Below, piece after piece: positions 43,549-60,910 of a stretch of DNA of 64,000 bases. Position 1 is the first letter of the stretch, and every line of letters starts with the position of its first letter. A program made the position numbers and the translations under genes. Below the pieces are notes generated by a model that worked only from the letters and a program-made list of their open reading frames with translations, searched no databases and was not told the DNA's origin. This DNA comes from Paenibacillus massiliensis subsp. panacisoli DSM 21345 (GTDB lineage Bacteria > Bacillota > Bacilli > Paenibacillales > Paenibacillaceae): assembly GCF_000426545.1 (NCBI RefSeq), contig NZ_AUFO01000020.1:62001-126000 (forward strand). The letters run 5' to 3'.

Positions 43549-43647
43549 CATCTTTATTAAGCTCTGTACTACGTTCGACATGTCGGATGTTGGGTTGGCA
43601 TAAACGTCTTGTATTGATAGTTATTATGAGAAAGGTGAGGAATTATC

Positions 43648-45135
43648 ATGGAAAATACGATGTGCCAAGAAACGGTCGCTCAATGGGAAAGGTTCGAACT
43701 TCGGTTACCAGGACCCATCGAAGACAATCCCTACGTCGATGTCGAATGGAGTGTCATTTTTCGCCATGAAGAAAAGGAAATCACGTCTGCTGGCTTTTAT
43801 GCGGGAGATGGTCTGTATATCACCAGGTTCATGCCTGAAGTCAGCGGAAAGTGGACATACGTAACGCATAGCAACACGCCTGAGCTGAATGGGGTACACG
43901 GAAGCTTCACTTGTGTCACTGCAGCACACATGGTTCACGGTCCAGTCAGGGTGAAGGATGAGAATCATTTTGCCTATGCGGATGGCACCCCATACTTCCC
44001 GTTCGGTACGACAGCGTACGCTTGGATTCATCAGGCGGAAGCCATGCGTACGCTAACGCTGCAGACACTTGCGGAGGGACCTTTTAATAAAATTCGAATG
44101 TGTTTATTTCCCAAAAATTACTCATTTAATGTCCATGAACCGGAGTCATTTCCTTTTATGGGCTCGCCAGCCATGGGCTTTGATAAAGCACGGTTTAACC
44201 CGGTATTCTGGGAGCATGTCGAGCGCTGCATCGAATCGTTGCTTGAGCTTCATATCGAAGCGGATGTAATCTTGTTTCATCCGTATGATAAAGGTCGATG
44301 GGGCTTCGACCGCATGTCTGCGGAGGAGGACGAACGATATCTCCGTTATGCCATCGCACGACTTGGGGCTTATCGGAACATCTGGTGGTCCATGGCGAAT
44401 GAATATGATTTCATGAGGGACAAATCAATGCCGGACTGGGAGCGTCTGGTAAGCGTTGCATCAGAGGCGGATACTCACCATCATCTATTGTCCATTCATA
44501 ACGGGACAGCGATGTATATTCCTGAAAGCGTTATAATGTATGATCATACTCGCTCTGAGATTACCCACTGCAGCATTCAACACTGGGACGTCACGTTGGT
44601 CACGGCATGGCGAGAGCGCTATCAGAAGCCAGTTATTGTTGATGAGTGTGGTTATGAAGGGAATTTGCAGCAACGGTGGGGCAACCTGAGTGCCGAGGAA
44701 ATGACGCATCGTGTCTGGGAAAGCTTCACCCGCGGTGGATATGCGAGTCACGGCGAGACATACCTACACCCCGATGACGAAATCTGGTGGTCCAAAGGGG
44801 GGAGGTTATATGGACGAAGTCAGGAGCAGATACGCTTTCTACGCAGCATTGCCGAGGAAATGCCTCCTGATACGCAGCCGATCCCGCTTCGTGACGTGCC
44901 TGCACTCGGAGTGAAGGGTTCATATTACTTGCATTACTACGGCCAACATCAGCCAGGCTACCGTGAGCTTGAGCTCCCGGAGGACGTAGATTTTTCGGCT
45001 GAATGGATCGACACGCAAGGCTTAAGTATCACCAAGTTACCTTTGAGCTATCGCGGAAAATGCCGCATCCCTTTGCCTAGTAAGCCTTATTATGCGCTTC
45101 GTATTCGTGCTGAGGAACATGCCTCATCAAAGTGA
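43648..45135 (+). CDS. DUF5060/DUF4038 glycoside hydrolase-like protein
   Basis: A 495-residue protein. An N-terminal beta-sandwich (VAQWERFELRLPGPIEDNPY, SGKWTYVTHSNTPELNG) of DUF5060 type is followed by the TIM barrel of DUF4038/apiosidase-like enzymes starting YFPFGTTAYAWIHQ. Likely catalytic residues are Glu252 in SMANEYDF and Glu333 in IVDECGYEG, the usual pair in clan A hydrolases. A DUF5605-like C-terminal domain follows. Cytoplasmic. It lies 100 bases after the DUF2264 gene. Confidence 0.78.
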   Translation: MENTMCQETVAQWERFELRLPGPIEDNPYVDVEWSVIFRHEEKEITSAGFYAGDGLYITRFMPEVSGKWTYVTHSNTPELNGVHGSFTCVTAAHMVHGPVRVKDENHFAYADGTPYFPFGTTAYAWIHQAEAMRTLTLQTLAEGPFNKIRMCLFPKNYSFNVHEPESFPFMGSPAMGFDKARFNPVFWEHVERCIESLLELHIEADVILFHPYDKGRWGFDRMSAEEDERYLRYAIARLGAYRNIWWSMANEYDFMRDKSMPDWERLVSVASEADTHHHLLSIHNGTAMYIPESVIMYDHTRSEITHCSIQHWDVTLVTAWRERYQKPVIVDECGYEGNLQQRWGNLSAEEMTHRVWESFTRGGYASHGETYLHPDDEIWWSKGGRLYGRSQEQIRFLRSIAEEMPPDTQPIPLRDVPALGVKGSYYLHYYGQHQPGYRELELPEDVDFSAEWIDTQGLSITKLPLSYRGKCRIPLPSKPYYALRIRAEEHASSK

Positions 45136-45541
45136 ACTAGCATATGGATCGTACATTGTGAGCTGTGATCCAGCCCCCGTCTCCCAATGAAGCATGTCCA
45201 CCATCCAATATAAAGCGCACCATATACATTGCCATGGGAACCATTCTAAATAAGGGCTTGGATTTCTATCGGCTTAGCTTTGAGGCATTTGGGGATCTGC
45301 TGTACTTAGCCCTACAATGACAATAGGCTGACAGACCGTGTCCACCCCAGAGGGAGCACTTTCGGCTGTGCAATGATGCGAATCGCAGCATGGGTGCGAA
45401 GAGGGGTTGATTTCTGCTTATGAACGCTAATATTGGGCCAAATCCGTCCTATTTTGTGAATTGACATTATTTTGCACGGAGCTTAACATATGAATCAGCG
45501 ATGAAATTCCAAAAAAAGGAATGATTGGATCGTGATTTGGT
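45136..45541. other. Intergenic region before the MpsC-like gene
   Basis: No gene was recognised. Its 3' end carries the promoter at 45461. Confidence 0.5.
45461..45489 (+). promoter_or_regulatory. Sigma-A promoter of the MpsC-like gene
   Basis: Perfect -35 TTGACA (45461-45466), 17-base spacer, -10 TAACAT (45484-45489). Immediately 5' is TTGTGAA (45454-45460), an exact Rex half-site, but the other half is not present. Confidence 0.65.
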
Positions 45542-45892
45542 ATGGCTGAAGCTGCTTATGAATATCAGGAGCGTATTCGCAGACTGGCTGTCAAAATCGT
45601 GAAGCATTATCGGGGCAAAGGTCCTGAGCTGGTGAAGGTGAAGCTGGATAGTGAGTCACAGATTACGATAGAGATTAAGGGGATGCTATCGAGTCTATCT
45701 GAAATATTACTGAGGGAGGGCGCGGAAGATCTCGTCACAGAATATTGGAAGGTACTGAGACCTTACCTGGAGCGCGGATTTATGGATGAGGTAATGGCGA
45801 CGATCGGAAGTGCATTCTCGTATTCCTGGCAGCTTCCTGATCTAGAGCAGGAGAGCAGTACAGTCATTATTCAGCTTCATAAGACGGTTTGA
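45542..45892 (+). CDS. DUF2294 (MpsC-like) family protein
   Basis: A 116-residue protein. RIRRLAVKIVKHYRGKGPEL, then IEIKGMLSSLSEILLREG and an end resembling the conserved SYSWQLPDLEQESSTVIIQL match DUF2294, the family containing MpsC of the cation-translocating MpsABC system of Staphylococcus. MpsA/B are not present here. DUF2294 genes are frequently found near formate dehydrogenase genes in Bacilli, as here. The ribosome site is weak. Role unproven. Confidence 0.65.
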   Translation: MAEAAYEYQERIRRLAVKIVKHYRGKGPELVKVKLDSESQITIEIKGMLSSLSEILLREGAEDLVTEYWKVLRPYLERGFMDEVMATIGSAFSYSWQLPDLEQESSTVIIQLHKTV

Positions 45893-45926
45893 TTAAAGAG
45901 AAAGGGTGGCAAAGCCCTTCGCTTTT

Positions 45927-45984
45927 TAATAAGCCATTACAGAGTTGCGGCGGAGAAGCTGCATCCTTTGTATTGGCTTTTTTT
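45927..45984 (+). terminator. Terminator between the MpsC-like gene and fdhF
   Basis: An imperfect stem of about 14 bp (AATAAGCCATTACA with TGTATTGGCTTTTT) containing an inner GC-rich hairpin, followed by seven T. A shorter hairpin with a T-run lies just before (45902-45926). Confidence 0.65.
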
Positions 45985-46067
45985 ATTGTAATTTTGTCTT
46001 ATTGCGGCTTATGCAGACAGTAGATTAGCAATTGATTTCTAGCTGAAACCTACGTTTATCGCATGTT

Positions 46068-46085
46068 ATGTGTATAAATTCACAA
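46068..46085. promoter_or_regulatory. Candidate Rex operator
   Basis: ATGTGTATAAATTCACAA matches 16 of 18 positions of the Rex consensus TTGTGAAWWWWTTCACAA (differences at positions 1 and 6). It ends in the AAGGAGG ribosome site, 13 bases before the fdhF ATG. An FNR-type reading (TGTGT-N6-TCACA) fits one position less well. Rex would repress when NADH is low, so the operon would be switched on under reductive, oxygen-limited conditions. Confidence 0.6.
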
Positions 46086-46098
46086 GGAGGTCAATTTC

Positions 46099-48243
46099 AT
46101 GGAAGAAAAGGTTCGCACAATATGTCCTTATTGCGGGAGTGGCTGTCAAATGTATCTACGTGTCCAGGATGGACAGATTGTCGGAGCAGAAGCGGCGGAT
46201 GGCCGCACGAATGAAGGGAACCTGTGTCTGAAGGGGCATTATGGCTGGGATTTCCTCCATGACCCGCAGCTGCTAACCTCGCGTCTACGTCACCCTATGA
46301 TACGCAAGGAAGGGAAGCTGACCGAGGTGGGGTGGGAGGAAGCTATTCAGTATACTGCGGCCAGACTGCTAGAGATTAAGGACAAATATGGCGCGGACTC
46401 TATCATGGGGACAGGCTCCGCAAGAGGGCCTGGCAATGAAGCGAACTATGTAATGCAGAAATTCATGAGAGCGGTCATTGGCACGAACAATATTGATCAT
46501 TGTGCGCGGGTATGTCACGGTCCGTCTGTTGCAGGTCTGACTTATTCTCTGGGGGATGGCGCGATGTCCAATTCGATTCCGGAGATTGAAGATGCGGATA
46601 TGCTGCTGATCTTCGGCTATAATGCCCCGGCCACTCATCCCATCGTAGCCCGTCGGATCGTGAAGGCGAAGCAAAAAGGAGCCATGCTCGTAGTAGGTGA
46701 CCCGCGTAAGACCGAGTCCGCGCGCATTGCCGATCTCTGGCTTCCACTCAAGGGCGGCACGAACATGGCACTGGTTAATGCTTTTGGACATGTGCTTATT
46801 GAGGAGAAGCTGTATGATGCAGATTTTGTAGCTCGTTATGTGGATGGGTTCGGTGCATATCGCTCTGCTGTAGAGAAGTATACACCAGAATATGCAGAGA
46901 CGATTACCGGGGTACGTGCAGCAGATATTCGTCAGGCGATGCGCAGCTATGCGAGGACGGACAAGGCGATGATTCTATATGGCATGGGCGTATGCCAGTT
47001 CGCGCAGGCGGTAGACGTGGTCAAAGGCCTGGCCTCACTTGCGCTGCTCACGGGACATTTTGGTAGACCCTCTGTGGGCATTGGGCCTGTACGGGGTCAA
47101 AATAACGTACAAGGCTCTTGCGATATGGGCGCATTGCCGAATGTATATCCGGGCTACCAGGCAGTCACAGATGAGCAGGTACGACGTAAATTCGAGGAGG
47201 CCTGGGGAGTCGACTTGCCGGATAGACCAGGGTATCGGCTGACCGAGGTACCGCATCTCATTCTGAAGGAGCAGAAGCTCAAGGCCTATTACATTTTTGG
47301 CGAGGATCCTGTACAGAGCGATCCGAATGCTGCCGAACTGCGGGAAGCATTGGATCAGCTCGAACTGGTCATTGTGCAGGATATTTTTATGAACAAGACG
47401 GCCCTGCATGCGGATGTAATCCTGCCAGCGACCTCGTGGGGTGAGCATGATGGGGTCTATTCCTCAGCCGACCGAGGCTTCCAGCGTATCCGCAAGGCAA
47501 TTAAGCCCCCTGCCTCGGTCAAGCCAGATTGGCAGATTATTAGCGAGCTGGCCACGGCGATGGGATACCCGATGAGCTACGGCAGCACCGAGGAGATCTG
47601 GGATGAAATGAGAGGGTTATGCCCAAGCTTTGCCGGGGCAAGCTACGCCAAGCTCGATGGACTTGCAGGCGTGCAGTGGCCTTGCCCGTCAGAGGAGCAT
47701 CCAGGCACTCCTTATCTTTATAAAGGTCATAAGTTCACTACTCCGAACGGCAAAGGTCAGCTATTCGCATGTGAGTGGAGACCACCGCTCGAGCAACCGG
47801 ATCAGGAATATCCGCTTGTGCTGTCGACGGTGCGCGAGGTAGGACATTATTCGGTTCGGACGATGACGGGCAATTGCCGCGCGCTTAGTCTGCTGTCCGA
47901 TGAGCCTGGTCGAGTGCAGATGAGCCCCGAGGATGCCACTTCACTGGGCATTGAGGATGGTCAGCTGGTACGTATCGTCTCACGTCGGGGACAGGTCGTA
48001 TCCAGGGCCCTGGTAACAGATCGTGTAGCCAAAGGAGCGTCGTACATGACGTATCATTTCTGGATTGGGGCATGCAACGAGCTGACCGTAGATGAGCTGG
48101 ACCCGGTATCGAAGACACCAGAGTTCAAATACTGCGCGATTCGGATTGAGGCGATCGCGGATCAGCCTCAGGCCGAGGAGCAGGTACGCCGTCAATATCA
48201 GCTACTCCGTGAGCAGATGCTGGTAGGGGAGCGCAGGGGATGA
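46099..48243 (+). CDS. fdhF: Formate dehydrogenase H-type catalytic subunit (Cys form)
   Basis: A 714-residue molybdo/tungsto-bis-PGD enzyme, close in length and sequence to E. coli FdhF. The N-terminal [4Fe-4S] site is Cys9, Cys12, Cys16, Cys43. Cys139 (TGT, 46513-46515), in CARVCHGPSVAG, takes the place of selenocysteine 140, followed by the conserved catalytic His140. The text MSNSIPEIEDADMLLIFGYN, then RGQNNVQGSCDMGALPNVYP and STVREVGHYSVRTMTGN is diagnostic of FDH-H rather than nitrate reductase. It oxidises formate to CO2 or runs in reverse. It overlaps the next gene by four bases. The perfect AAGGAGG upstream is partly covered by a Rex-like operator. Confidence 0.92.
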   Translation: MEEKVRTICPYCGSGCQMYLRVQDGQIVGAEAADGRTNEGNLCLKGHYGWDFLHDPQLLTSRLRHPMIRKEGKLTEVGWEEAIQYTAARLLEIKDKYGADSIMGTGSARGPGNEANYVMQKFMRAVIGTNNIDHCARVCHGPSVAGLTYSLGDGAMSNSIPEIEDADMLLIFGYNAPATHPIVARRIVKAKQKGAMLVVGDPRKTESARIADLWLPLKGGTNMALVNAFGHVLIEEKLYDADFVARYVDGFGAYRSAVEKYTPEYAETITGVRAADIRQAMRSYARTDKAMILYGMGVCQFAQAVDVVKGLASLALLTGHFGRPSVGIGPVRGQNNVQGSCDMGALPNVYPGYQAVTDEQVRRKFEEAWGVDLPDRPGYRLTEVPHLILKEQKLKAYYIFGEDPVQSDPNAAELREALDQLELVIVQDIFMNKTALHADVILPATSWGEHDGVYSSADRGFQRIRKAIKPPASVKPDWQIISELATAMGYPMSYGSTEEIWDEMRGLCPSFAGASYAKLDGLAGVQWPCPSEEHPGTPYLYKGHKFTTPNGKGQLFACEWRPPLEQPDQEYPLVLSTVREVGHYSVRTMTGNCRALSLLSDEPGRVQMSPEDATSLGIEDGQLVRIVSRRGQVVSRALVTDRVAKGASYMTYHFWIGACNELTVDELDPVSKTPEFKYCAIRIEAIADQPQAEEQVRRQYQLLREQMLVGERRG

Positions 48244-48923
48244 GTGCTGTGGGGCCCAATGCGCTGGTCATTGCCGAAGCGGATAGATGCATTGGCTGCA
48301 AGGCTTGTGAGCTGGCCTGCTTTGCAGTACATCACCGCCATAACGGGGTACAGGCTGCAGTAGGAACGGTCACCATACCTGTTCTTCCTCGGCTGTATGT
48401 CATTCGTGATGACAGCTTCACCATGCCAGTCCAGTGTCGTCATTGTGAGAATGCACCTTGTGCCGAGGTATGCCCGGTGCAAGCCATCCGTCAGACAGAA
48501 GGGATCATCGACATTTCAACTGATGCATGTATTGGCTGTAAAGCCTGCTCACTCGCTTGTCCATTCGGTGCGATCAGTCTGTACAAGGCATACAGTGCAG
48601 GTGCGGAGGTCAGGCAGGAAAGACTGCGACAGCAAGAGGTGTATGAGCGACAGGGAAAGCGAAATGGGGACAATAGCAATGGCATCAAGTCTAAAATGGT
48701 CGCCTATAAATGTGATCTGTGCCGGGAAGCTGATCTGAGCAGCTTCGAAGGGCATGAAGGGGAGGAGGAACTGAATGCACCTCCGAATGCGGTTCGCGAT
48801 CGTGTGCCTGCTTGTGTGACTGTCTGCCCGGTGAACGCTCTGAAGCTGATCAAGCCAGCGGCATTGCCTTCGCACAAAGCAGCACCCGTACCTGTCTATG
48901 GTCGTGCGAATCCGATGCTCTAA
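48240..48923 (+). CDS. hycB: Four-cluster ferredoxin-like electron-transfer subunit
   Basis: A 227-residue polyferredoxin. Four Cys groups are visible: CIGCKACELAC (Cys17 onward), CRHCENAPCAEVCP, CIGCKACSLACP and CDLC with CVTVCP, enough for four [4Fe-4S] clusters. It belongs to the HydN/HycB family that links FdhF to a hydrogenase. An insert of ~30 charged residues (about 120-150) and a 25-residue proline-rich tail are unusual for HydN. ATG overlaps the fdhF stop, so subunits should be made in balanced amounts. In HDCR complexes two such subunits form the wire between formate and hydrogen sites. Confidence 0.88.
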   Translation: MSAVGPNALVIAEADRCIGCKACELACFAVHHRHNGVQAAVGTVTIPVLPRLYVIRDDSFTMPVQCRHCENAPCAEVCPVQAIRQTEGIIDISTDACIGCKACSLACPFGAISLYKAYSAGAEVRQERLRQQEVYERQGKRNGDNSNGIKSKMVAYKCDLCREADLSSFEGHEGEEELNAPPNAVRDRVPACVTVCPVNALKLIKPAALPSHKAAPVPVYGRANPML

Positions 48924-49013
48924 AGCTCGTAAGGTATACAGGATTAACAATTATAAAAGCTTGAGCAAGCCCATAAATTCCATCTAAAAAGAACCAAAAA
49001 AGGAATGACTGCC

Positions 49014-50441
49014 ATGTCAAATAGTGAGCTTTTCGTTCAAATTGATGCAGAGCTGTGTACAGGCTGCCGGCAGTGCGCAACCGTATGTCCGGTAAACGCC
49101 ATTGCGGGGGAGCCTGGTCAACCACAGACGATTGATACAGACAGTTGTGTGCTCTGCGGTCAATGTGTGCAGATTTGTACCTCCTATGCAGCTGAAGGCA
49201 ACGAGGAAGGCAAGTACCTCGCTGCTCTGAGAGAACGGCGTGGACAACTGCCATCTGTACGTGAGCCGCTCTTCGCAGCCTACTCGACCGGACAGGTACT
49301 GAAGGTGAAGCAGGCACTCAGAAGCGGGCAGCTGCAGACGGTCGTCCAGTGCGCTCCGGCAATACGTGTATCGCTTGCAGAAGAATTCGGCCTGCCCTTC
49401 GGTACGCTTACTCCTGGTAAGATGGCAGCCGCACTGCGACGCCTGGGGTTTGACCGCATCTATGATACCAATTTTGGTGCAGATGTGACCATTATGGAGG
49501 AAGGAACGGAGCTGATCGGACGTGTGATGGCAGGGGAGCGGCTGCCGATGTTCACAACCTGCTGCCCTGCCTGGGTCAAGCATGCAGAAACGGCGGCTCC
49601 TGATCTTCTGGAGCACTTGTCCAGCTGCAAGTCTCCGATGCAGATGGTAGGCGCATTAATCAAGACCTTCGGAGCGCAGCTGGATGAAGTTGACCCGTCG
49701 CACATTTATAGTGTCGCGGTCATGCCATGCACATGTAAGGCGTTCGAATGCAGCCGTGAGGAAATGGAGGTCGACGGACATCGTGAGGTGGACGTGGTCA
49801 TTACGACCCGAGAGCTGGCTCAGCTGATCAAGGATGCTGGTATTGACTTCGAGCAATTGCCAGATGAGCCTTTTGATGCGCCACTTGGTCTGTACTCCGG
49901 TGCCGGTTCCATATTCGGTGTCACCGGGGGCGTGATGGAGGCCGCGATCCGCACCGGGTATGAGCTCATGACTGGGGAGAAGCTGATGGAGCTCCAATTG
50001 GATTTTGTACGTGGTGAGGAGGGGATTCGCACAGCGGAGGTTCAGGTAGGTGAGCTATGCCTGCGAGTAGCAGTAGTAGCCGGTCTTCAGTACGTCCAGC
50101 CTGTGCTGGATCAGATACGGGAGGGAACCTGCCCATATCATTTCGTTGAGGTAATGGCTTGTCCGGCAGGCTGTATCAGCGGAGGCGGTCAGCCGAAGCT
50201 GCTACTGGAGACACAGCGCAAGCAGGCATATCTGGCCAGGAAGACCGCGGTCTATCGTCATGATGCCCATCAACAGGTTCGCAAGTCACATGAGAATCCC
50301 GCCATTATTGAATTATATGCGCAATTTTTAGGGGAGCCGCTGGGACATGTATCTCATCATTTGCTGCATACTGTGTTCCGATCAAGAAAGCCATCGTCCT
50401 GTCCTCCCCTACAGGCAGGAAGGAGAGCTGAATCAAGATGA
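49014..50441 (+). CDS. hydA: [FeFe] hydrogenase catalytic subunit
   Basis: A 475-residue protein. Start 49014 has AGGA at nine bases; the earlier ATG 49005 does not. The N-terminal ferredoxin part has two [4Fe-4S] motifs (Cys15, 18, 21, 25 and CVLCGQCVQIC). The H-domain shows all three H-cluster motifs: FTTCCPAW (L1, including the proton-relay Cys), MPCTCKAFE (L2) and EVMACPAGCISGGGQP (L3, with P-A for P-G). This is a short M3-like hydrogenase without NADH or extra domains, of the type found with formate dehydrogenase in HDCR (putative group A4). It overlaps the next gene by four bases. Confidence 0.92.
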   Translation: MSNSELFVQIDAELCTGCRQCATVCPVNAIAGEPGQPQTIDTDSCVLCGQCVQICTSYAAEGNEEGKYLAALRERRGQLPSVREPLFAAYSTGQVLKVKQALRSGQLQTVVQCAPAIRVSLAEEFGLPFGTLTPGKMAAALRRLGFDRIYDTNFGADVTIMEEGTELIGRVMAGERLPMFTTCCPAWVKHAETAAPDLLEHLSSCKSPMQMVGALIKTFGAQLDEVDPSHIYSVAVMPCTCKAFECSREEMEVDGHREVDVVITTRELAQLIKDAGIDFEQLPDEPFDAPLGLYSGAGSIFGVTGGVMEAAIRTGYELMTGEKLMELQLDFVRGEEGIRTAEVQVGELCLRVAVVAGLQYVQPVLDQIREGTCPYHFVEVMACPAGCISGGGQPKLLLETQRKQAYLARKTAVYRHDAHQQVRKSHENPAIIELYAQFLGEPLGHVSHHLLHTVFRSRKPSSCPPLQAGRRAESR

Positions 50442-51019
50442 ATAGCTTTGTCATTGCTGATCCCGAACGCTGTATTGGCTGTCGCACATGCGAGGTGGCT
50501 TGTGCCACGGCCCATGCGGGGGAGAATATGCTGCTGTGTTCGGAGGAGCAGGTCCCCTTTTACCCCAGATTGAGAGTGATGGAGACGAATGAGATTACTG
50601 CACCTGTACAGTGTCGTCACTGCGAGGATGCTCCATGTGCCAATGTCTGCCCTAATGGTTCCATCGTGAACCGGGGCCACAGCATTTACATCAATGAGAG
50701 CACTTGTATTGGTTGTAAAACCTGTATGCTGGTCTGCCCGTACGGAGCGATTACGATGATTCCCGCTTATAAGAGCGGCAGAAAGGAATATCAGGCAGGC
50801 CTGCGCATGAGCAACGGTGGAGGCTGGAGACCCAAGGAGCGGATGGTTGCAAGTAAATGTGATCTGTGTGTGGACAGCGGACAGGGGCCAGAGTGTGTGC
50901 GGATCTGCCCTACACAGGCGCTGCAGCTGGTTCAGCCCAAGGAGCTGGAGCTGGAGATTGCCTCCAAAAGATTGAACACGGCACGCACATTGCGGCAGTT
51001 CGGTGGTCTGATTCGGTAG
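50438..51019 (+). CDS. hycB: Second four-cluster ferredoxin-like subunit
   Basis: A 193-residue HydN/HycB-family protein: CIGCRTCEVACA, CRHCEDAPCANVCP, CIGCKTCMLVCP and CDLC with CVRICP, so four [4Fe-4S] clusters. It differs from the protein at 48240 in its tail (ELEIASKRLNTARTLRQFGG, a likely amphipathic helix), which in acetogen HDCR subunits is the kind of region used for filament contacts; whether this one does so is unknown. Its ATG overlaps the hydA stop. Confidence 0.88.
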   Translation: MNSFVIADPERCIGCRTCEVACATAHAGENMLLCSEEQVPFYPRLRVMETNEITAPVQCRHCEDAPCANVCPNGSIVNRGHSIYINESTCIGCKTCMLVCPYGAITMIPAYKSGRKEYQAGLRMSNGGGWRPKERMVASKCDLCVDSGQGPECVRICPTQALQLVQPKELELEIASKRLNTARTLRQFGGLIR

Positions 51020-51054
51020 GGGTGTGAATTTTTGCTAAAAGGCAGGTGAAGCAC

Positions 51055-52269
51055 ATGCTCAATTCCTTGAAGGATTCCTTTGGTCGTGTACACACTTATG
51101 TACGTATCGCTGTGACAGAGCATTGCAACTTGTCCTGCCGCTATTGTAGGCCAGCGCTCAAGGACATGCTTGGTCGTGAACAACCGCTGAATACATCAAC
51201 GGATGTACTTACGGATGATGACATTGTGTCTGTGGTGTCGGCTATGGCGGAGATGGGAGTCAAGAAGGTTCGGCTTACCGGCGGCGAGCCGCTGCTGCGA
51301 CCAGGATTGGCTGCACTAGCTGCCAGACTACGCGCTATTGACGGCATTCAGCGGCTTGGGGTGACGACGAATGGCATGCTGCTGGCTGCGCAAGCTTACT
51401 CGCTGCGGGAAGCTGGGGTGACGGACATGAATATTAGTCTGGATTCTCTGCGACCCGCGACATTTGCGGCGATTACTGGAGCTGATGTCTTTGACCGCGT
51501 ATGGAGAGGGCTGGAGGCCAGCTTGGCCGCCGGCTTTGAGCGAGTGAAGCTGAACGTCGTGTATATGCGTGGAACGAATGACGATGAGGTGGAAGATTTT
51601 TTGCGGCTGACTCTAAAGAGACCGGTTGCCGTCCGCTTCATCGAATATATGCCCATCGGACGCAACACGAAAGGCTGGGCCGACAGCTATAAGCCACTGA
51701 CAGGTGTATTGGAGCTCTGTAAGAGAGTTGGCTGGAGGTATGAGGCCGTTGCTGAGGTCGGAAACCAGGCGAGCAGCAAGGCTGAAGGCTGTCTGGAGAC
51801 GTTGGGCGGACCCGCGCGTTACTACCGAATCGACGGGGCGACTGGTTGCTTTGGCCTGATCTCGCCGATCAGCGAGCATTTCTGTGCTGTCTGTAATCGC
51901 TTGCGATTGACGGCGGACGGCTGTATAAAGTCCTGTCTCTACTGGAATGAAGAATCTGACATCAAGCCGTATCTTGGAAATCACTTCGAGCTGAAGCTAG
52001 CCCTACAAAGGGCGCTGGGCCTCAAGCCGCTTCGCCATGGCATGGGAGCCTCAGCAATGTCCTGCAGGACCTCAGATCATTCCGCACATTCCATGTACTC
52101 TGGCTGTCCATCACATTCTACCTGCTCCACCTGCACAGCAGATGCAGTGAAGCTAGGGCAATCAGCACAAACGGAACAGTACCTGTCGGTGCTACCAAGA
52201 CTGCAGGATGAGTCACAGCATGGGAGGCAAAAAGGGACAGCTCGGCAAATGTCGCAGATTGGAGGATGA
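51055..52269 (+). CDS. moaA: GTP 3',8-cyclase MoaA with Cys/His-rich insertion
   Basis: A 404-residue radical SAM enzyme (typical MoaA ~330-340). Start 51055 follows GGCAGGTG. The N-terminal cluster uses Cys24, Cys28, Cys31; the C-terminal cluster uses CAVCNRLRLTADGCIKSC. It makes the first intermediate of molybdopterin, needed by FdhF. It ends MSQIGG, and the terminal Gly-Gly is required for MoaA activity. Between KPLRHG and this end is an insertion of ~60 residues rich in Cys, His and Ser (MSCRTSDHSAHSMYSGCPSH, then STCSTC), not found in ordinary MoaA. It begins 35 bases after the preceding gene and belongs to the operon. Confidence 0.88.
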   Translation: MLNSLKDSFGRVHTYVRIAVTEHCNLSCRYCRPALKDMLGREQPLNTSTDVLTDDDIVSVVSAMAEMGVKKVRLTGGEPLLRPGLAALAARLRAIDGIQRLGVTTNGMLLAAQAYSLREAGVTDMNISLDSLRPATFAAITGADVFDRVWRGLEASLAAGFERVKLNVVYMRGTNDDEVEDFLRLTLKRPVAVRFIEYMPIGRNTKGWADSYKPLTGVLELCKRVGWRYEAVAEVGNQASSKAEGCLETLGGPARYYRIDGATGCFGLISPISEHFCAVCNRLRLTADGCIKSCLYWNEESDIKPYLGNHFELKLALQRALGLKPLRHGMGASAMSCRTSDHSAHSMYSGCPSHSTCSTCTADAVKLGQSAQTEQYLSVLPRLQDESQHGRQKGTARQMSQIGG

Positions 52270-52290
52270 AGATAGGAGGATGATGTAAGG

Positions 52291-53796
52291 ATGAAGCAGA
52301 CTAAGCATCTAGACGCTGTGGAGCATTCGGCTCCCTCGTGTAAGCACAGGCAGGCCTTTCGACAGGAGCAGGATGCGCTAGGCTCTTTGCCTATTCCCGC
52401 TGAGGCCTATTATGGCGTCCATACCATGCGGGCGAAGATGAATTTTGCAGTCAGCTCGCGTCCAGTGAACCTAAGACTCATACGAGCCGTGGTTCTTGTG
52501 AAGAAGGCAGCTGCCCGTGTGAATGGCAGAAGTGGCGAATTGCCTGTCGATAAGGCAAGAGCTATTGAGCTGGCTTGCAATGACATATTGGCTGGTGAAC
52601 TGGAGGAGCAATTTGTTGTGGATGCTTATCAAGGGGGCGCGGGGACAAGCACGAACATGAATGTGAACGAAGTGGTAGCGAACCGCGCGTTGGAGCACAT
52701 GGACGAGCAAAAGGGCGACTACCACATCGTTCATGCCATCGATGATGTGAATCGCTACCAATCTACGAATGACGTCTATCCGACTGGCCTTCGTATAGCC
52801 TTGATTCCGCTGGTAAGGGAGCTGGCGGAGGCGATGGCGTGCTTGCAAGCCATCTTCCAGCTCAAGGAGCAGGAGTATGCAGAGGTACTTCGATTGGGCC
52901 GCACTCAATTGATGGATGCCTTGCCCATTCTGGCAGGGCAGACCTTCGGGGCTTATGCGAAGGCAGTTGCCAGGGACCGCTGGCGGCTCTATAAGGTGGA
53001 GGAGCGGCTGAGAGAAATTCATATCGGAGGTACAGCGGTAGGTACGGGTATGAATGCTCCGCTTGCTTATGCATATGCCATGACAGACGAACTGCGCGAG
53101 CTGACAGGGCTTGGCCTGTGCAGATGCGATTATCCGATGGATCCGACGCAAAATATGGACATCTTCGTAGAAGTATCGGGTCTGCTAAAGGCTGCGGCCG
53201 TGAATCTTCTTAAAATCTCTAATGACTGCCGACTGCTGTCGTCTGGACCAGCTGGTGGAATAGGTGAATATGTCCTTCCTCCAGTACAGGCAGGCTCCTC
53301 ACTCATGCCGGGCAAGGTAAATCCGGTGATGGCTGAAATGCTGGGCTGCGTAGCGATGCGCGTAATCGCAAACGACACGGCAGTGACGCTGGCCGCGTCA
53401 CACGGTCAACTGGAGCTGAATGCGTTCATTTCGCTGTTAGCGGAGGCGTTGCTGGAATCGCTAGAGCTGCTCATCCACGCCGTCCCCTTGTTCCAGGAGC
53501 GCTGTATTGCAGGCTTGACACTGGATGAAGAGCGCTGCCGAGAGCATCTGGAGCGTTCTGGTGTACTGGCGGCAGCCACAGTGGCGTACCTCGGCTATGA
53601 TGCAGCCGCGGACTTGCACAGGATAGCTGCCTCGTCAGGTCGACCCTTGGAGGAAATGCTGCTGGAGCAAGGGTTAATGACACCCGAGCAAATCCGTCAG
53701 GTGCTGAGCCCCTATGCTGTGACGAGTCCTGGCATTCCTGGGCGTTCAAGAGAGAATAACGAACCGGTCTGCGGGACGAAGGAGGGAACGATGTGA
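52291..53796 (+). CDS. aspA: Aspartate ammonia-lyase inside the hydrogenase operon
   Basis: A 501-residue member of the aspartase/fumarase superfamily. The signature loop GSSLMPGKVNPV and the substrate-binding blocks GGAGTSTNMNVNEV, HAIDDVNRYQSTNDVYPT and GRTQLMDALPI are present. The Mnv/NEV and GTGMN text favour aspartase over fumarase. It releases ammonia and fumarate from aspartate. In [FeFe] hydrogenase operons aspartase is a recurring neighbour of hydF/E/G, and ammonia has been implicated as the source of the bridge nitrogen of the H-cluster. The stop overlaps hydF by four bases. Confidence 0.87.
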   Translation: MKQTKHLDAVEHSAPSCKHRQAFRQEQDALGSLPIPAEAYYGVHTMRAKMNFAVSSRPVNLRLIRAVVLVKKAAARVNGRSGELPVDKARAIELACNDILAGELEEQFVVDAYQGGAGTSTNMNVNEVVANRALEHMDEQKGDYHIVHAIDDVNRYQSTNDVYPTGLRIALIPLVRELAEAMACLQAIFQLKEQEYAEVLRLGRTQLMDALPILAGQTFGAYAKAVARDRWRLYKVEERLREIHIGGTAVGTGMNAPLAYAYAMTDELRELTGLGLCRCDYPMDPTQNMDIFVEVSGLLKAAAVNLLKISNDCRLLSSGPAGGIGEYVLPPVQAGSSLMPGKVNPVMAEMLGCVAMRVIANDTAVTLAASHGQLELNAFISLLAEALLESLELLIHAVPLFQERCIAGLTLDEERCREHLERSGVLAAATVAYLGYDAAADLHRIAASSGRPLEEMLLEQGLMTPEQIRQVLSPYAVTSPGIPGRSRENNEPVCGTKEGTM

Positions 53797-55073
53797 ATCG
53801 CTTGAGCATGAATCACACGCCGCGTGGCCAGCGACCGCATATTGCCGTGTTCGGGCGTTGTAATGCGGGGAAATCAAGCCTGATTAATGCGATCTGTGGG
53901 CACACAGCAGCGATCGTATCCCCGGTAAGCGGCACGACGACGGACCCGGTCTATCAAGCCATGGAGCTGCTCCCGGCCGGTCCGGTCGTGTTCATTGATA
54001 CCGCGGGACTGGATGATCACAGTGTGCTCGGCAATGAACGTTCACGTGTCGCACTAAGCATATTGCAAAAGACGGATATGGCGCTGTTGGTCATTGATCC
54101 AGAGTATGGTGTCGATATGCTGGAGCAGGATCTTATTCACAGGTTGAAGGCAACAGCCCCTCACATCATGCTAATCATAAATAAGCTAGATCGTATAGAT
54201 GGTGGGCCAGCGGATATACAACAGTACTGCGATCGCATCGTGCTCCAGCTCGGGGCAAGCTCCGAGCTGGAGCTGCACGCGGTGAGCAGCCTCACACATA
54301 GCGGCATTGTCAAGCTGAAGCAGGCGATGGCTGTCAGACTGGCAGCTCAGGAGGAGGAGCGCTTTCGGCTCGTAGGCGATCTGTTGCAGCCAGGAGAGCT
54401 GGCGGTGCTCGTCGTTCCGATTGACAAGGCTGCACCGAAGGGACGGCTGATATTGCCACAGCAGCAGGTAATCCGTGACATTTTGGAATGTGATGCCACG
54501 GCTGTAGTGACCAAGGAGCATGAGCTCGCACATACACTGGCTTCATTAGGTCGCAGGCCCAGTCTCGTCATTACGGACTCTCAGGTATTCATGAAGGCCG
54601 CTGCGGATACGCCCTTGGACGTGCCGCTCACATCGTTCTCGATCCTGTTCGCCAGAGCCAAGGGGCATCTGCCGCAGCTCGTCAAGGGAGTACGCTCGAT
54701 TAGCACTCTGAAGGAAGGGGATCGGGTCCTGGTTGCCGAGGCTTGCACTCACCACCGTCAATGCGATGATATCGGTACGGTGAAGATCCCTCGCTGGCTG
54801 CGGGAGCGGTGCGGCAAGAAGCTGTCTATTGAGCACGCCTCAGGCGGCGAATTGCCCCCATCGCTGGACTCCTTTGCCCTCATTATCCACTGTGGTGCAT
54901 GCATGCTGAATCGCCAGGCTATGCTGAATCGCCTGGCTGCGGCAGCAGCTGCCGGGGTACCCATCGTGAATTACGGGATGTTCATCGCCTATGTGCAGGG
55001 AGTGTTCCCGCGAGCGATTGAGATCTTCCCTGAGGCGCGCTTGGCCTGGGATGAGCCTGTGTTCAATCCTTAA
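53793..55073 (+). CDS. hydF: [FeFe] hydrogenase maturation GTPase HydF
   Basis: A 426-residue protein starting with GTG (AAGGAGGG upstream). The GTPase domain has P-loop GRCNAGKS (residues 21-28), GTTTDPV as G2 and DTAGLDD as G3, then NKLD as G4. The C-terminal scaffold carries EACTHHRQCDDIGTVKIPRW and the cluster ligands in HCGACMLNR. HydF receives the diiron precursor and delivers it to HydA. It closely follows aspA. Confidence 0.93.
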   Translation: MNRLSMNHTPRGQRPHIAVFGRCNAGKSSLINAICGHTAAIVSPVSGTTTDPVYQAMELLPAGPVVFIDTAGLDDHSVLGNERSRVALSILQKTDMALLVIDPEYGVDMLEQDLIHRLKATAPHIMLIINKLDRIDGGPADIQQYCDRIVLQLGASSELELHAVSSLTHSGIVKLKQAMAVRLAAQEEERFRLVGDLLQPGELAVLVVPIDKAAPKGRLILPQQQVIRDILECDATAVVTKEHELAHTLASLGRRPSLVITDSQVFMKAAADTPLDVPLTSFSILFARAKGHLPQLVKGVRSISTLKEGDRVLVAEACTHHRQCDDIGTVKIPRWLRERCGKKLSIEHASGGELPPSLDSFALIIHCGACMLNRQAMLNRLAAAAAAGVPIVNYGMFIAYVQGVFPRAIEIFPEARLAWDEPVFNP

Positions 55074-55151
55074 TAATTACACTGGATACGATACTAGAAG
55101 TCTCGATGGAAAGGTAGATCAGACATAACAGCGATCGTAAGGGTTCTTTTG

Positions 55152-55193
55152 TTTGGAGCTTTGCTTGGGAGCTTAGTTTGGGGCTTTGCTCGG
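55152..55193 (+). repeat. Imperfect direct repeat between hydF and hydE
   Basis: TTTGGAGCTTTGCTTGG (55152-55168) recurs as TTTGGGGCTTTGCTCGG (55177-55193), period 25, two differences. It sits in the only larger gap of the operon (55074-55272), which holds no gene; significance unknown. Confidence 0.5.
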
Positions 55194-55272
55194 AGCGAAG
55201 TTACGCACCATAGTTCTTTGGGATCGTTTGCGTACACACCTTAATCAAAGGATGCAATAGGCTGCTGTAGGA

Positions 55273-56364
55273 ATGGAGGGAGGCCCAACGAATCACCTCA
55301 TAAGCAAACTTGGCAGTCAAGGTACACTAAGCAGATTCGAGCTGATTTCGCTGATCGACTCTCTTGATGAGTCTGTGCATCAGCATTTACGGCGTACGGC
55401 ACACCGTGTACGTGTATCTATGTATGGCAATAGCGTATATGTGCGTGGGCTGATCGAATTCTCGAATATTTGCAAGCAAAACTGCCTGTATTGTGGACTG
55501 CGTTCAGGCAATAAGCAACTGAGCCGTTACCGTCTGTCGCTTCAGGAAATTATAAAATGCTGCGATGAGGGCTATGAACTCGGCTACCGAACCTTCGTCC
55601 TGCAAAGCGGCGAGGATGCTTGGTATACAACCGACCGACTGGCCGAGTTAATACACTCCATCAAACAGTCCTATCCAGACACGGCCGTCACGCTCTCCAT
55701 CGGCGAGAGAAGCAATGAATGTTATACACGGCTGTACGAGGCCGGAGCCGATCGATTCTTGCTGCGCCATGAGACAGCATCACGTGCGTTATACGATGCT
55801 CTGCACCCGACAATGCAATTCGAGCAACGGCGAGAGCGGCTGCACGCTCTTCAAAGCATCGGCTATCAGATCGGGGCAGGCTTCATGGTCGGCCTACCGG
55901 GACAGACTTCAGCCGACTTGGCGGAGGACCTGCTGTATGTACAGGAGCTGCAGCCGGATATGATCGGGATTGGCCCTTTTTTGCCGCATAAAGCAACCCC
56001 GCTCAGGGATCAGCCCCCAGGTACAATAGAGCGTACCCTTGATATGATTGCACTGGCCCGACTGCTGGTTCCGCAAGCATTGATTCCGGCCACGACGGCA
56101 ATGGGCACGGCCCACCCGCAAGGACGGGAGCTGGCGCTGCTGGCAGGTGCCAATGTCGTCATGCCGAATCTATCACCGATGTCCGTGCGCGATAAATACA
56201 TGCTCTATAACAACAAAATCTGCACAGGAGACGAATCTGCACAATGCCGTTTCTGCCTCGAGCGGCGCATTGAAGCAGTTGGACTCTATATGGATATGGG
56301 ACGCGGTGATAGCCTGAAATACCTGGACCGAAGCGGGCAGCCTATCGCTCCATTCTTGTCATAG
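55273..56364 (+). CDS. hydE: [FeFe] hydrogenase maturation radical SAM protein HydE
   Basis: A 363-residue radical SAM enzyme of the BioB/HydE/PylB branch. The cluster ligands are Cys67, Cys71, Cys74 in NICKQNCLYCGL. SVYVRGLIEFSNICKQNC and FVLQSGEDAWYTTD are typical of HydE. It processes the HydG-made iron complex in building the diiron subcluster. The C-terminal CRFCLERR may bind a second, accessory cluster. The ribosome site is weak (TAGGA). Confidence 0.92.
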   Translation: MEGGPTNHLISKLGSQGTLSRFELISLIDSLDESVHQHLRRTAHRVRVSMYGNSVYVRGLIEFSNICKQNCLYCGLRSGNKQLSRYRLSLQEIIKCCDEGYELGYRTFVLQSGEDAWYTTDRLAELIHSIKQSYPDTAVTLSIGERSNECYTRLYEAGADRFLLRHETASRALYDALHPTMQFEQRRERLHALQSIGYQIGAGFMVGLPGQTSADLAEDLLYVQELQPDMIGIGPFLPHKATPLRDQPPGTIERTLDMIALARLLVPQALIPATTAMGTAHPQGRELALLAGANVVMPNLSPMSVRDKYMLYNNKICTGDESAQCRFCLERRIEAVGLYMDMGRGDSLKYLDRSGQPIAPFLS

Positions 56365-56488
56365 AAGGAAAAGGCAATGACGCAGGGTCCCGCACAAGTT
56401 GGCGTAGTAGACGAGATGTAACAACGTGCATTTGTCGGAAAACGGCTCCAAGTATCACCATCTATTTTATAGAAAGAAGTGAATCGCT

Positions 56489-57904
56489 GTGAGCAAGCTG
56501 GATGAGCATCGCCCGGCAGATTTTATTCAGGATGAGGACATAATTGCCGCCCTTCGCTATGGCGCCGAGGCGGTGCAGGACCGTGCATTGGTGGAGGATA
56601 TACTGGACAGGGCTAGCGCATGCAAGGGGCTCAGTTCTATGGAAGCAGCTGTGCTACTCCATGTGGAGGATGCGGAGACACTGGAACGGCTATTCCTGGT
56701 GTCTAGACAGATTAAGGAACGAATTTACGGCAACCGAATCGTACTCTTTGCTCCGCTATATATAAGCAATTACTGTGTCAACAATTGTGTCTATTGCGGC
56801 TATAAGCATTCTAATTCGGATTTGGAGCGCTGTCGCCTGAGTGCCGACAATATCGCGGAGGAAGTCCGGGTATTGCAAGCCCTTGGTCACAAACGACTTG
56901 TGCTGGAGGCTGGCGAGGATGAGCGCTACTGCTCCATAGACTATGTGCTCGATTGCATACGTACCATCTATGAGACGAGGCTGGATAACGGTCAAATCCG
57001 TCGCGTCAACATCAATATTGCTGCCACGACAGAGGAGAATTATCGCCGTTTGGCTGCGGCAGGGATCGGAACGTACATCCTTTTCCAGGAGACCTACCAT
57101 CGGCCCAGCTATCGCCATTATCATCCCAATGGTCCGAAGCGGGATTATGACTGGCATACGACCGCCATGGATCGAGCCATGCGCGCGGGTATAGATGATG
57201 TCGGTATCGGTGTTCTGTACGGTCTGTATGATCACAAATACGATACGATCGCCATGCTGAAGCATGCGGAGCATCTGGAGGAGGCATTCGGCTGCGGCCC
57301 CCATACGATCTCCGTTCCTCGCCTGCGGCCGGCTGAAAATGTCAATCTGGATAACTATCCATATCTCGTCAATGATCATGAATTTGCCAAGATCGTGGCT
57401 GTTCTGCGGTTGTCCGTCCCTTATACAGGCATGATTTTGTCCACACGGGAAGACACTGGCTTCCGGGACCGGATTATTCAGTTAGGCATTTCACAGATTA
57501 GCGCTGGCTCTGCTACAGGCGTAGGGGGCTACAGCGTCAATAAAGACAAGGAGCAGGTATCGCAGTTCACGCTTGGCGACCACCGATCACCACTTGAGAT
57601 CGTCAAGGCACTATGCAGGGATGGTTACGTTCCCAGCTACTGTACAGCCTGCTACCGCGAGGGCCGTACCGGGGACCGTTTCATGCAACTGGCCAAGTCT
57701 GGACAGATCCACAATGTGTGTCAGCCGAATTCGCTAATGACGCTGCTGGAATATTTGCTGGATTACGCGGATGAGGAAATGAAGGAGCTGGGGGAGCAGA
57801 TTATTCGCGACAATCTTGAGAGTATTCCTAAGGAAGGAGTAAGAAAGGCTACCATGAGACAACTGGAGCGAATCCGAAGCGGTGAGCGGGATTTGCGATT
57901 CTAG
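56489..57904 (+). CDS. hydG: [FeFe] hydrogenase maturation tyrosine lyase HydG
   Basis: A 471-residue radical SAM enzyme starting with GTG. The SAM cluster is at Cys96, Cys100, Cys103 (YCVNNCVYCGY). The C-terminal cluster motif CTACYREGRTGDRFMQL with a third Cys further on (NVCQPNS) is the HydG-specific site where CO and CN are bound to iron. HydG cleaves tyrosine to make these ligands. It is the last gene of the operon before the terminator. Confidence 0.93.
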   Translation: MSKLDEHRPADFIQDEDIIAALRYGAEAVQDRALVEDILDRASACKGLSSMEAAVLLHVEDAETLERLFLVSRQIKERIYGNRIVLFAPLYISNYCVNNCVYCGYKHSNSDLERCRLSADNIAEEVRVLQALGHKRLVLEAGEDERYCSIDYVLDCIRTIYETRLDNGQIRRVNINIAATTEENYRRLAAAGIGTYILFQETYHRPSYRHYHPNGPKRDYDWHTTAMDRAMRAGIDDVGIGVLYGLYDHKYDTIAMLKHAEHLEEAFGCGPHTISVPRLRPAENVNLDNYPYLVNDHEFAKIVAVLRLSVPYTGMILSTREDTGFRDRIIQLGISQISAGSATGVGGYSVNKDKEQVSQFTLGDHRSPLEIVKALCRDGYVPSYCTACYREGRTGDRFMQLAKSGQIHNVCQPNSLMTLLEYLLDYADEEMKELGEQIIRDNLESIPKEGVRKATMRQLERIRSGERDLRF

Positions 57905-57930
57905 TGAATTTTATATGAAAAGTAAATAGA

Positions 57931-57977
57931 AAGGAGGCCCCAACAAGTCGCATTTATGCGTTGTTAGGGGCCTTTTT
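57931..57977. terminator. Terminator after hydG
   Basis: A 12-bp stem (AGGCCCCAACAA with TTGTTAGGGGCCT, one bulged A) with a T-run. It separates hydG from the convergent fdhD. Confidence 0.8.
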
Positions 57978-58171
57978 ATTGCTAGCTGTATCGTACGATT
58001 TTCTACCGTTATCTCATGGTATTCTCATCATGTCTTATGGGGTCTTATAGGGTCTCATTAGTACATTTAAATCCTATCAGCAGCTTAAGGATAGCTCATC
58101 GCTTGCTGACACAGGTGGCTTACAGACTTCCGTCACTGCGCGAATTCTCTTAAACGGCTCACACTTGCCTG

Positions 58172-58969
58172 CTAATCAGCAGTAATTCGCTCGGGATGGC
58201 TGTATACATTGCAGACGTCTGCCCGAATGAAGCCGACTGCGGTTATACCCAGCTCATCAGCCAGATCGATCGCAAGACTGGTCGGAGCGGATTTGGACAG
58301 GACGATTTCCGCTCCGAGCTTGGAGGCCTTCAACAATATTTCCGAAGAGATTCTTCCACTGAGTACGATCGTGCTGTGCTCGGGGGGAATTCCTTGTCGC
58401 AGATAGTGTCCCAGTATCTTATCCAGTGCATTATGGCGCCCAATATCACTGCGGGTCAGAAGTACGTCCTTATTGCTGCATAGTGCTGCAGTATGAACGC
58501 CTCCGGTGTGCTGGAACAGCTCAGTTCCCGACAGTACCGTATTCATCAAGCGGAAGCAATCGGCATAGCGCAATTCAATAGGTTCGCCATGGGTATGCTT
58601 GGCCGTGCGTGCATCGTTGACGTACACGAAGCTGTGACGCCCCGAGCCGCAGCAGGAGGTGACGTACCGCTTGGCGAATAGCTGCCGATGCAGGGGATTC
58701 CAGCGTTTCGTCGTGACATGCACGAAGCCTTCTTCCTCCTGGGTCCAAATATGCTGGATATCCTGCATATGGCGTATAATTCCCTCGGAGGCGAGATAGC
58801 CGATGACCATATCCTCGATGAACTCTGGGGTACAGACGAGGGTTACAAATTCCTCGCCGTTAATCTTAATCGTTACCGGGTGTTCCATAGCGATGGTGTC
58901 CTCTACATGACTTAGAAGTCCCTGGCAAAATCGGATAATGTGCCGTGCTTGCTCAGGCTGTGTATTCAT
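58172..58969 (-). CDS. fdhD: Formate dehydrogenase accessory sulfurtransferase FdhD
   Basis: A 265-residue protein. The sulfur-transfer loop reads TSCCGSGRHS, the Bacillus-type variant with adjacent cysteines, rather than the E. coli CxxC. FQHTGGVHTAALCSN and LTRSDIGRHNALDKILGHYL are the FdhD signatures, and LSGRISSEILLKASKLGA follows. FdhD moves sulfur from IscS to the metal cofactor of FdhF. It lies convergent to the operon, with its own AAAGGAGGAGCATA ribosome site, so it is separately regulated. Confidence 0.92.
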   Translation of the reverse strand: MNTQPEQARHIIRFCQGLLSHVEDTIAMEHPVTIKINGEEFVTLVCTPEFIEDMVIGYLASEGIIRHMQDIQHIWTQEEEGFVHVTTKRWNPLHRQLFAKRYVTSCCGSGRHSFVYVNDARTAKHTHGEPIELRYADCFRLMNTVLSGTELFQHTGGVHTAALCSNKDVLLTRSDIGRHNALDKILGHYLRQGIPPEHSTIVLSGRISSEILLKASKLGAEIVLSKSAPTSLAIDLADELGITAVGFIRADVCNVYSHPERITAD

Positions 58970-60744: not shown

Positions 60745-60769
60745 TCATAACATGAATTTCATAAAAATG

Positions 60770-60865
60770 TTTTCTAGGGTTCCGAACCGTAGATCGGTTG
60801 ACTGGTCCGAGAGAAAACGCATTGGGCGCATCACCTAATGTACACGGCGGGAAAAAAGCCCGGGA
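60770..60865 (+). ncRNA. Guanidine-I (ykkC) riboswitch
   Basis: The aptamer shows the conserved blocks in order: CTAGGGTTCCGA, then CTGGTCCGAGAGAAAACGC, then ACACGGCGGGAAAAAAGCCC. These match the ykkC class I aptamer that binds guanidinium. The last block overlaps the left half of the downstream terminator, so ligand binding should stop terminator formation and switch the genes on. Confidence 0.92.
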
Positions 60866-60910
60866 GAATCAATCAAAGAGCAATCTTTGATGTTTCTCTC
60901 GGGCTTTTTT
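60855..60910 (+). terminator. Riboswitch expression-platform terminator
   Basis: A long stem (AAAGCCCGGGAGAA with TTCTCTCGGGCTTT, continued by ATCAAAG/CTTTGAT) followed by six T. It shares bases with the aptamer 3' end. Confidence 0.88.

Follow-up and report, generated by a model that had tools for sequence, protein, structure and literature searches.

A formate dehydrogenase and [FeFe] hydrogenase module of Paenibacillus with an mpsC-like gene and a putative attenuator RNA at its head

Why would a Paenibacillus carry the gene set of a hydrogen-dependent CO2 reductase (HDCR), and what might govern the expression of that set? The question is raised by 64,000 nucleotides (nt) of Paenibacillus massiliensis subsp. 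panacisoli DSM 21345 (assembly GCF_000426545.1, contig NZ_AUFO01000020.1, positions 62,001-126,000), taken from a genome of 43 contigs and 6.33 Mb that is 99.99% complete. This whole stretch is called the window here, and positions are counted from its first letter. An earlier reading made from the letters alone (the sequence-only reading) had found such a set at 46099-57904 and proposed that it makes H2 from formate in a host that is not an acetogen. As judged from lineages and gene context, it is likely that the block encodes a soluble formate:H2 module of the HDCR type with the fermentative role of a formate hydrogenlyase, to which an attenuator RNA and an accessory protein, MpsC, belong. 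The enzyme module adds one more case to a type of cluster known from the genus, and the proposal that an HDCR-like complex serves Paenibacillus as a soluble formate hydrogenlyase is already in print (PMC6288185). What is new here is the linkage of the MpsC gene to formate dehydrogenase genes, together with a conserved covarying RNA between mpsC and fdhF. On comparative evidence, the Fdh-H type of the formate dehydrogenase FdhF, the apparent partnership with MpsC and the predicted attenuator are conserved and specific features of the module.

Enzyme lineages and the proposed formate hydrogenlyase role

All nine genes of the earlier list (fdhF, hycB, hydA, hycB, moaA, aspA, hydF, hydE and hydG) are present in that order on the + strand, and the ATGA four-base overlaps described at two junctions join fdhF to hycB (48240-48243) and hydA to hycB (50438-50441). 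The contiguous fdhF, hydA2 and two hycB genes do make up the HDCR subunit set, with which both the similarity of HydA and the trees agree. The best match of HydA (49005-50441, +) is HydA2 of the Thermoanaerobacter kivui HDCR, at 664 bits against at most 402 for the next solved chains, and over 458 residues the identity of the two is 62.7%. The HydA tree has 29 rows, of which only four serve as outgroup; in it a clade of 25 rows (99/97) unites the window, the other Paenibacillus, the clostridial HDCR-like loci and T. kivui HydA2. The protein passes the cut-off of TIGR02512 ([FeFe] hydrogenase group A), its motifs TTCCPAW, MPCTCK and EVMACPAGCISGGGQP are intact, and it is the one Fe_hyd_lg_C match in the genome at E 0.001.

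The formate dehydrogenase, FdhF (46099-48243, +; TIGR01591, Fdh-alpha), has a different affinity, and this weighs against a simple HDCR identity. It scores 971 bits with Escherichia coli Fdh-H and 743 with T. kivui FdhF (59.3% and 49.6% identity), which appears to place it outside the T. kivui lineage. In the FdhF tree (28 rows), with long branches flagged, its clade (100/100) takes in E. coli FdhF and the majority of the clostridial FdhFs but neither T. kivui nor Clostridium ragsdalei FdhF. Since the FdhF clades split while the HydA clade unites, one HydA2 lineage appears to have been paired with at least two formate dehydrogenase lineages. The enzyme is predicted to be of the cysteine form, with Cys139 intact; none of the 13 named Paenibacillus FdhFs has an in-frame stop, and eight of the nine others have one TGA at the site of selenocysteine (Sec) or cysteine.

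The two HycBs have 4Fe-4S domains above Pfam cut-offs and contain 16 and 17 cysteines, and among the 25 NCBIfam families listed neither reaches an equivalog cut-off. By score both are nearest to HycB4. In the tree, hycB1 (48240-48923, +) goes with T. kivui HycB4 and hycB2 (50438-51019, +) lies on the HycB3 side, with support for the split of only 84/82. With regard to filament formation, a C-terminal stretch resembling that of HycB3 is seen, but the HycB of E. coli carries a comparable one. The comparison with the T. kivui subunits that had been called for therefore yields a HydA of the HydA2 lineage with one HycB3-type and one HycB4-type subunit. This division of types suggests an electron path from FdhF through HycB2 and HycB1 to HydA, and by analogy we infer that HycB2 is the partner of FdhF and HycB1 that of HydA. 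Pyruvate formate-lyase would supply the formate, which FdhF would oxidise at a molybdenum or tungsten centre with a Cys ligand, and the electrons would leave the 4Fe-4S cluster of FdhF along this path, pass the clusters of HydA and reach the H-cluster, which would produce H2. HydE, HydF, HydG and AspA would assemble the H-cluster, AspA by giving ammonium for the bridging ligand, and MoaA and FdhD would serve the molybdenum cofactor.

The direction of catalysis is a separate matter. HDCR is reversible (PMC6288185), so that direction is unreadable from sequence, which counts against the hydrogenlyase reading and in favour of the alternative, a complex whose main task is CO2 reduction, as in HDCR proper, and which makes formate with H2 for one-carbon metabolism. 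HydA and HycB do group with the T. kivui HDCR, as that alternative would have it. We nevertheless regard it as very improbable: the genome holds a pyruvate formate-lyase gene (pflB, 1233.5 bits), no AcsC/CdhD-type protein exceeds its cut-off there (best 20.3 vs 24.8 bits; AcsB and CooS not searched), and formate, H2 and CO2 are described among the fermentation products of P. polymyxa (PMC6288185). The same paper reports putative HDCR clusters in many Paenibacillus, considers that HDCR could stand in for formate hydrogenlyase, and cites work in which extracts of P. polymyxa made H2 out of formate. A formate/nitrite-transporter gene is also present (contig C29). The earlier view of the module as a formate hydrogenlyase in a host that is probably no acetogen is supported by pflB and by the acetogen search; the making of H2 itself stands as a prediction from sequence.

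A candidate attenuator between mpsC and fdhF

The block begins one gene further upstream than had been described, at an mpsC-like gene of 116 amino acids (45542-45892, +) that the sequence-only reading omitted. Between it and fdhF, the intergenic alignment contains a conserved hairpin followed by a terminator, an element (R1) placed at 45886-45989 (+) in the window, where it folds at -41.6 kcal/mol (z -5.4); the elements of seven relatives have z from -3.5 to -5.9. Its hairpin, P1, has a conserved asymmetric internal loop. Across 14 sequences, 97.7% of the cells are paired, and at most 56.4% when the partner strand is slid. Changes on both sides are seen in 7 of 25 pairs (4.5 in shuffles, with 4 of 500 reaching 7), and 22 cells carry double changes as against 6.9 in shuffles. 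Under stricter filters, a model of R1 returns 33 matches of at least 84.8 bits in 392 genomes of the order, and the next match scores 33.5. Each of the 30 matches examined as loci lies between mpsC and fdhF; 12 of them contain a training sequence verbatim and the other 18 do not. Weaker matches (33.5 bits and below) were judged to be chance, because none of the 11 places examined among them had the query genes. At gathering score Rfam has nothing for R1, with only far sub-threshold matches at loose thresholds, and searches of an open library for literature on a leader RNA yielded nothing useful.

The arrangement of strands is that of competing hairpins. An upstream strand, 45886-45890 (GGUUU), and the second strand of the terminator, 45975-45979 (GGCUU), compete for AAGCC at 45931-45935. 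In minimum-energy folds of the 14 sequences, transcripts that end ahead of the second strand of the terminator have AAGCC paired upstream, with GGUUU in ten and with GGUU in four, and full transcripts have it paired downstream in 14/14, so that antiterminator and terminator are mutually exclusive in 14/14. The covariation and, in silico, the competing folds are established, and from them we infer what the RNA does. In the proposed mechanism, GGUU(U) at the end of mpsC would hold AAGCC as an antiterminator, or the same AAGCC would pair with GGCUU ahead of a run of U as a terminator, and the choice between the two would set fdhF expression. The attenuator thus looks like an on/off control. In the window the upstream strand shares nucleotides with the final codon and stop of mpsC, so that it could be masked by a ribosome terminating there.

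Several points count against a switch. Six of the seven double-change pairs are in P1 and P2 is mostly invariant; with the terminator stem nearly without variation, the covariation supports P1 more than P2. Further pair types are not in excess (17 vs 16.0 in shuffles, 169/500). At full length all 14 sequences fold most stably as the terminator, which may merely reduce fdhF relative to mpsC. In a rival explanation, R1 is a constitutive partial terminator whose stabilising hairpin maintains an excess of mpsC transcripts, and it does not switch at all; this terminator fold and the run of U after it speak for that. We consider this explanation rather doubtful, as both lineages, despite different spacing, retain the GGUU(U)-AAGCC pairing when the transcript is truncated, and P1 covaries and has its conserved internal loop.

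The unit itself would be transcribed from a promoter 5' of mpsC. A consensus match, TTGACA-N17-TAACAT, predicts one at 45461-45489 (+), and TTGACA-N17/18-TAACAT is found 5' of mpsC in 9/12 loci, those without it being L042, L043 and L044. A palindrome at 46068-46085 (+), with 1 mismatch to TTGTGNANNNNTTCACAA, lies immediately 5' of the fdhF ribosome-binding site; it is Rex/FNR-like, and Rex and FNR are candidate binders. Palindromes of this TGTG(N)...TCACA type occur 30-36 nt 5' of the fdhF ATG, likewise in 9/12 loci. With at most 2 mismatches the pattern has 6 sites in the window where 2.1 are expected, and 6/100 shuffles reach 6; the single window site therefore proves little, and it is the conservation that is the evidence.

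MpsC as a candidate partner gene and a second leader RNA

Is MpsC a chance neighbour? Its gene is directly 5' of fdhF in all 23 other Paenibacillus loci and in six further ones (L145, L146, L147, L149, L150 and L151), and the module type of mpsC is found in the identical 17 of 75 genus genomes as HydA. Among the matches listed from 151 Bacilli genomes, MpsC lies within 5 kb of 45 of 114 high-scoring formate dehydrogenase places (44/113 without the window's own pair), where about 0.7 would be expected for genomes of 3.5 Mb, and of none of 36 weaker places of the family. In 19 of 20 fetched loci, whose open reading frames (ORFs) were annotated for query genes only, just forE, focA or fdhD among these genes separates mpsC from a forC-type formate dehydrogenase; the 20 were chosen for closeness of both genes and therefore speak to adjacency, not frequency. 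The host's own genome has a second formate dehydrogenase locus (L068, G000:C29:44000-55384), with focA, fdhD and mpsC on one strand and forC and forE on the other. The genomic linkage is established, and it suggests that the role of MpsC in Bacilli may be that of an accessory devoted to formate dehydrogenases. In the twentieth fetched locus (L082, G097:C44) two tandem mpsC genes lie about 2 kb from a formate dehydrogenase of another type with an in-frame TGA, and fdhD is there also.

Weighing against this role, the module MpsC is a distant member of PF10057 (26.9 bits vs a cut-off of 23), though 13 of the 14 members of its alignment (A1) match the family at E 0.001. No MpsC was found in 16 non-Paenibacillus loci, some of them short, with a 30-protein profile and with short or weak matches included, so MpsC is not needed for such complexes generally. 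In Staphylococcus aureus, moreover, deletion of mpsC is described as having no growth phenotype (PMC6689103). Its predicted structure is poor (pLDDT 56.6), and a search for sequence relatives in the PDB yielded nothing useful. The main text of the ForCE paper PMC8808070 contains neither DUF2294 nor YbcI. In the open library, DUF2294 was not found together with formate dehydrogenase, and a search for MpsC or DUF2294 gave, among the matches listed, other meanings of MPSC.

It is quite possible, if somewhat short of probable, that MpsC acts, like FdhD, in the maturation or assembly of formate dehydrogenase and has no role in RNA control. It adjoins fdhD in many of the 20 fetched loci, accompanies both formate dehydrogenases of the host genome and, as said, avoids the 36 weaker places; its absence from the non-Paenibacillus HydA-FdhF loci examined speaks against a maturation role.

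The order of genes brings a further model to mind. In the hut operon of Bacillus subtilis the first gene encodes HutP, which binds nascent RNA and prevents termination at the terminator that follows. By analogy, MpsC could be an RNA-binding regulator of this kind, and the order mpsC-attenuator-fdhF would suit it, as would the structured leader and terminator between mpsC and forC in 28/30 loci of the second leader RNA described below. We think it unlikely, since elsewhere mpsC is found 3' of forCE or on the other strand, and the structure model is too poor to reveal an RNA-binding fold.

This second leader RNA (R2) was seen by eye 5' of forC in 15/20 loci, and also in L084, as a GGAUUGGU-like stretch, a hairpin, a ACUACUCC-like stretch and a terminator. 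The host genome has one before its second, ForC-type dehydrogenase (L068:7266-7359). The R2 model was built from 8 of 16 leaders, selected for shift-free alignment; in these eight, 95.5% of the cells are paired and 8/20 pairs are double-changed, and 0/500 shuffles reach either value. It recovers 14/16 leaders at E<=0.01, eight of them training rows, with L078 at 0.16 and L076 missed. In a search across the class, 48/348 genomes were matched at E<=0.01, and of the 30 loci examined (L154-L183), eight of which hold a training sequence verbatim, 28 have R2 5' of forC with mpsC beside. Of the other two, L173 has its R2-type leader (L173:1501-1582, -) where a gene of the PF03458 'Glycine transporter' family begins, a possible clue to a ligand, and the match in L174 has no ORF of at least 80 amino acids in the next ~330 nt. 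Rfam 15 at gathering gave no match for the R2-type leaders of 11 loci. Homology of R1 and R2 was considered and is rejected for now: R1 weakly matched two ForC leaders (L084, 23.3 bits; L071, 21.7), and R2 found no mpsC-fdhF element at E 1 in 17 sources, the window and Paenibacillus modules.

MpsC is thus found with two formate dehydrogenase lineages, FdhF with an [FeFe] hydrogenase and the menaquinone-linked ForC. A tentative proposal, which we find attractive but would not call probable, goes further: in Bacilli the formate dehydrogenases would constitute a separate regulon, with MpsC as partner of two distant lineages, each lineage under its own undescribed structured leader RNA with competing antiterminator and terminator, and with one or both leaders sensing a small molecule from formate or one-carbon pathways, the molybdenum cofactor or MpsC. 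The two leaders are compact candidate regulatory RNAs ahead of formate dehydrogenase genes, both of them testable. If confirmed, the leader RNAs would show how facultative anaerobes time the conversion of formate to hydrogen.

Conservation, surroundings and comparison with known systems

The core order mpsC-fdhF-hycB-hydA-hycB is the same in all 23 distinct other Paenibacillus loci examined in the survey of synteny that the earlier reading had called for, and this identity indicates that the grouping is not chance. The set comprises 15 loci from genus genomes and eight named ones, after removal of five named duplicates of those genomes; L033 has a split hydA, and in two cases the contig stops inside the block. 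The split hydA (L033:11370-12772, G024) appears as two tblastn pieces, perhaps a frameshift, and extra DNA of ~1.5-1.8 kb lies between hydA and hycB2 at L045:11389-12853 and L150:6712-8529. The seventeenth genus genome with HydA (G018) has hydA and mpsC on separate contigs and is outside the 23. The nearest named relative found is P. massiliensis (HydA 97% identical).

The one-direction layout of the whole block fares differently. It holds in the window, and among the loci examined only P. massiliensis has the same; as a general trait it is rejected, hydG-hydE being reversed in 20 of the 21 loci that hold both. Downstream of the block, fdhD (58172-58969; PF02634, 271 bits) is present as had been read, on the opposite (-) strand.

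The notion that the block is transferable as a unit was not borne out. A recent acquisition as one mobile unit would agree with the G+C content of the module (45542-58969), 0.534 against 0.470 in the window and 0.458 in another stretch of the genome, and with the presence of HydA in only 17/75 genus genomes; this excess and patchiness leave a place for transfer. We hold recent acquisition to be improbable, though, because the Paenibacillus rows stay together in both trees, with support of 83/75 for HydA and 93/94 for FdhF (neither at the starred level), the window and P. massiliensis are 97-98% identical in HydA and FdhF, and no empty site was found among four loci sharing an upstream gene (mobile genes were not sought).

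The remaining genes of the block, all on the + strand and all above their NCBIfam cut-offs, bring the families so identified to seven. They are moaA (51046-52269; GTP 3',8-cyclase, GTG start; TIGR02666, 313.5 bits vs a cut-off of 284), aspA (52291-53796; aspartate ammonia-lyase with the GSSLMPGK loop; NF008909, 601.7 vs 510, the narrower TIGR00839 being missed at 484.9 vs 681.2), hydF (53793-55073; GTG start; TIGR03918, 515 bits), hydE (55273-56364; TIGR03956, 495 bits) and hydG (56489-57904; GTG start; TIGR03955, 677 bits). The CxxxCxxC motifs of HydE, HydG and MoaA are intact, and a further four-base overlap, absent from the earlier description, joins aspA to hydF (53793-53796). Outside the module, a Guanidine-I riboswitch (60763-60868, 95.9 bits) lies directly 5' of a DUF1989 gene (60937-61659). 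Upstream, at 42400-45135, are DUF2264 and DUF5060/Apiosidase-like genes, the latter kept also in genus members where HydA was not found.

How does the module compare with known systems? With HDCR (T. kivui, PDB 7QV7; A. woodii; structure reviewed in PMC13397495) it shares FdhF, an [FeFe] HydA2 and two HycBs in a single cluster and, with that of T. kivui, an FdhF without Sec. It differs in the order fdhF-hycB4-hydA-hycB3, in an FdhF nearer to E. coli Fdh-H, in having mpsC and the apparent attenuator in front and the hyd maturases in the same block, and in its host, a Paenibacillus without the acetogen marker searched for (CdhD/AcsC type). E. coli formate hydrogenlyase has in common with it the FdhF lineage, a HycB-like subunit and the reaction from formate to H2 and CO2, which for the module is proposed; there, a [NiFe] hydrogenase and Sec stand in place of the [FeFe] hydrogenase and Cys of the module. 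No [NiFe] hydrogenase-3 or membrane subunits are among the module proteins, the rest of the genome not having been searched for [NiFe].

The Paenibacillus clusters of PMC6288185 agree in genus, cluster type and proposed role; its section 14 makes no mention of MpsC, a leader RNA, aspA or the FdhF lineage. A search procedure for HDCR clusters is given in PMC6119302, in whose main text Paenibacillus does not appear. The link of aspA to hydF is already in print: PMC11736057 shows AspA to be capable of providing the bridgehead nitrogen, with aspA commonly near hydF. The window, with aspA immediately 5' of hydF, shows no notable difference from those hyd operons, and the main text there does not name Paenibacillus. 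Finally, MpsC shares Pfam PF10057 with S. aureus MpsC of mpsABC, and outside staphylococci mpsC is described as not co-located with mpsAB (PMC6689103). The module mpsC differs from that of S. aureus in being linked to formate dehydrogenase, with no mpsAB adjoining in the window, and a protein whose name and annotation suggest sodium transport is thereby given a testable formate dehydrogenase context.

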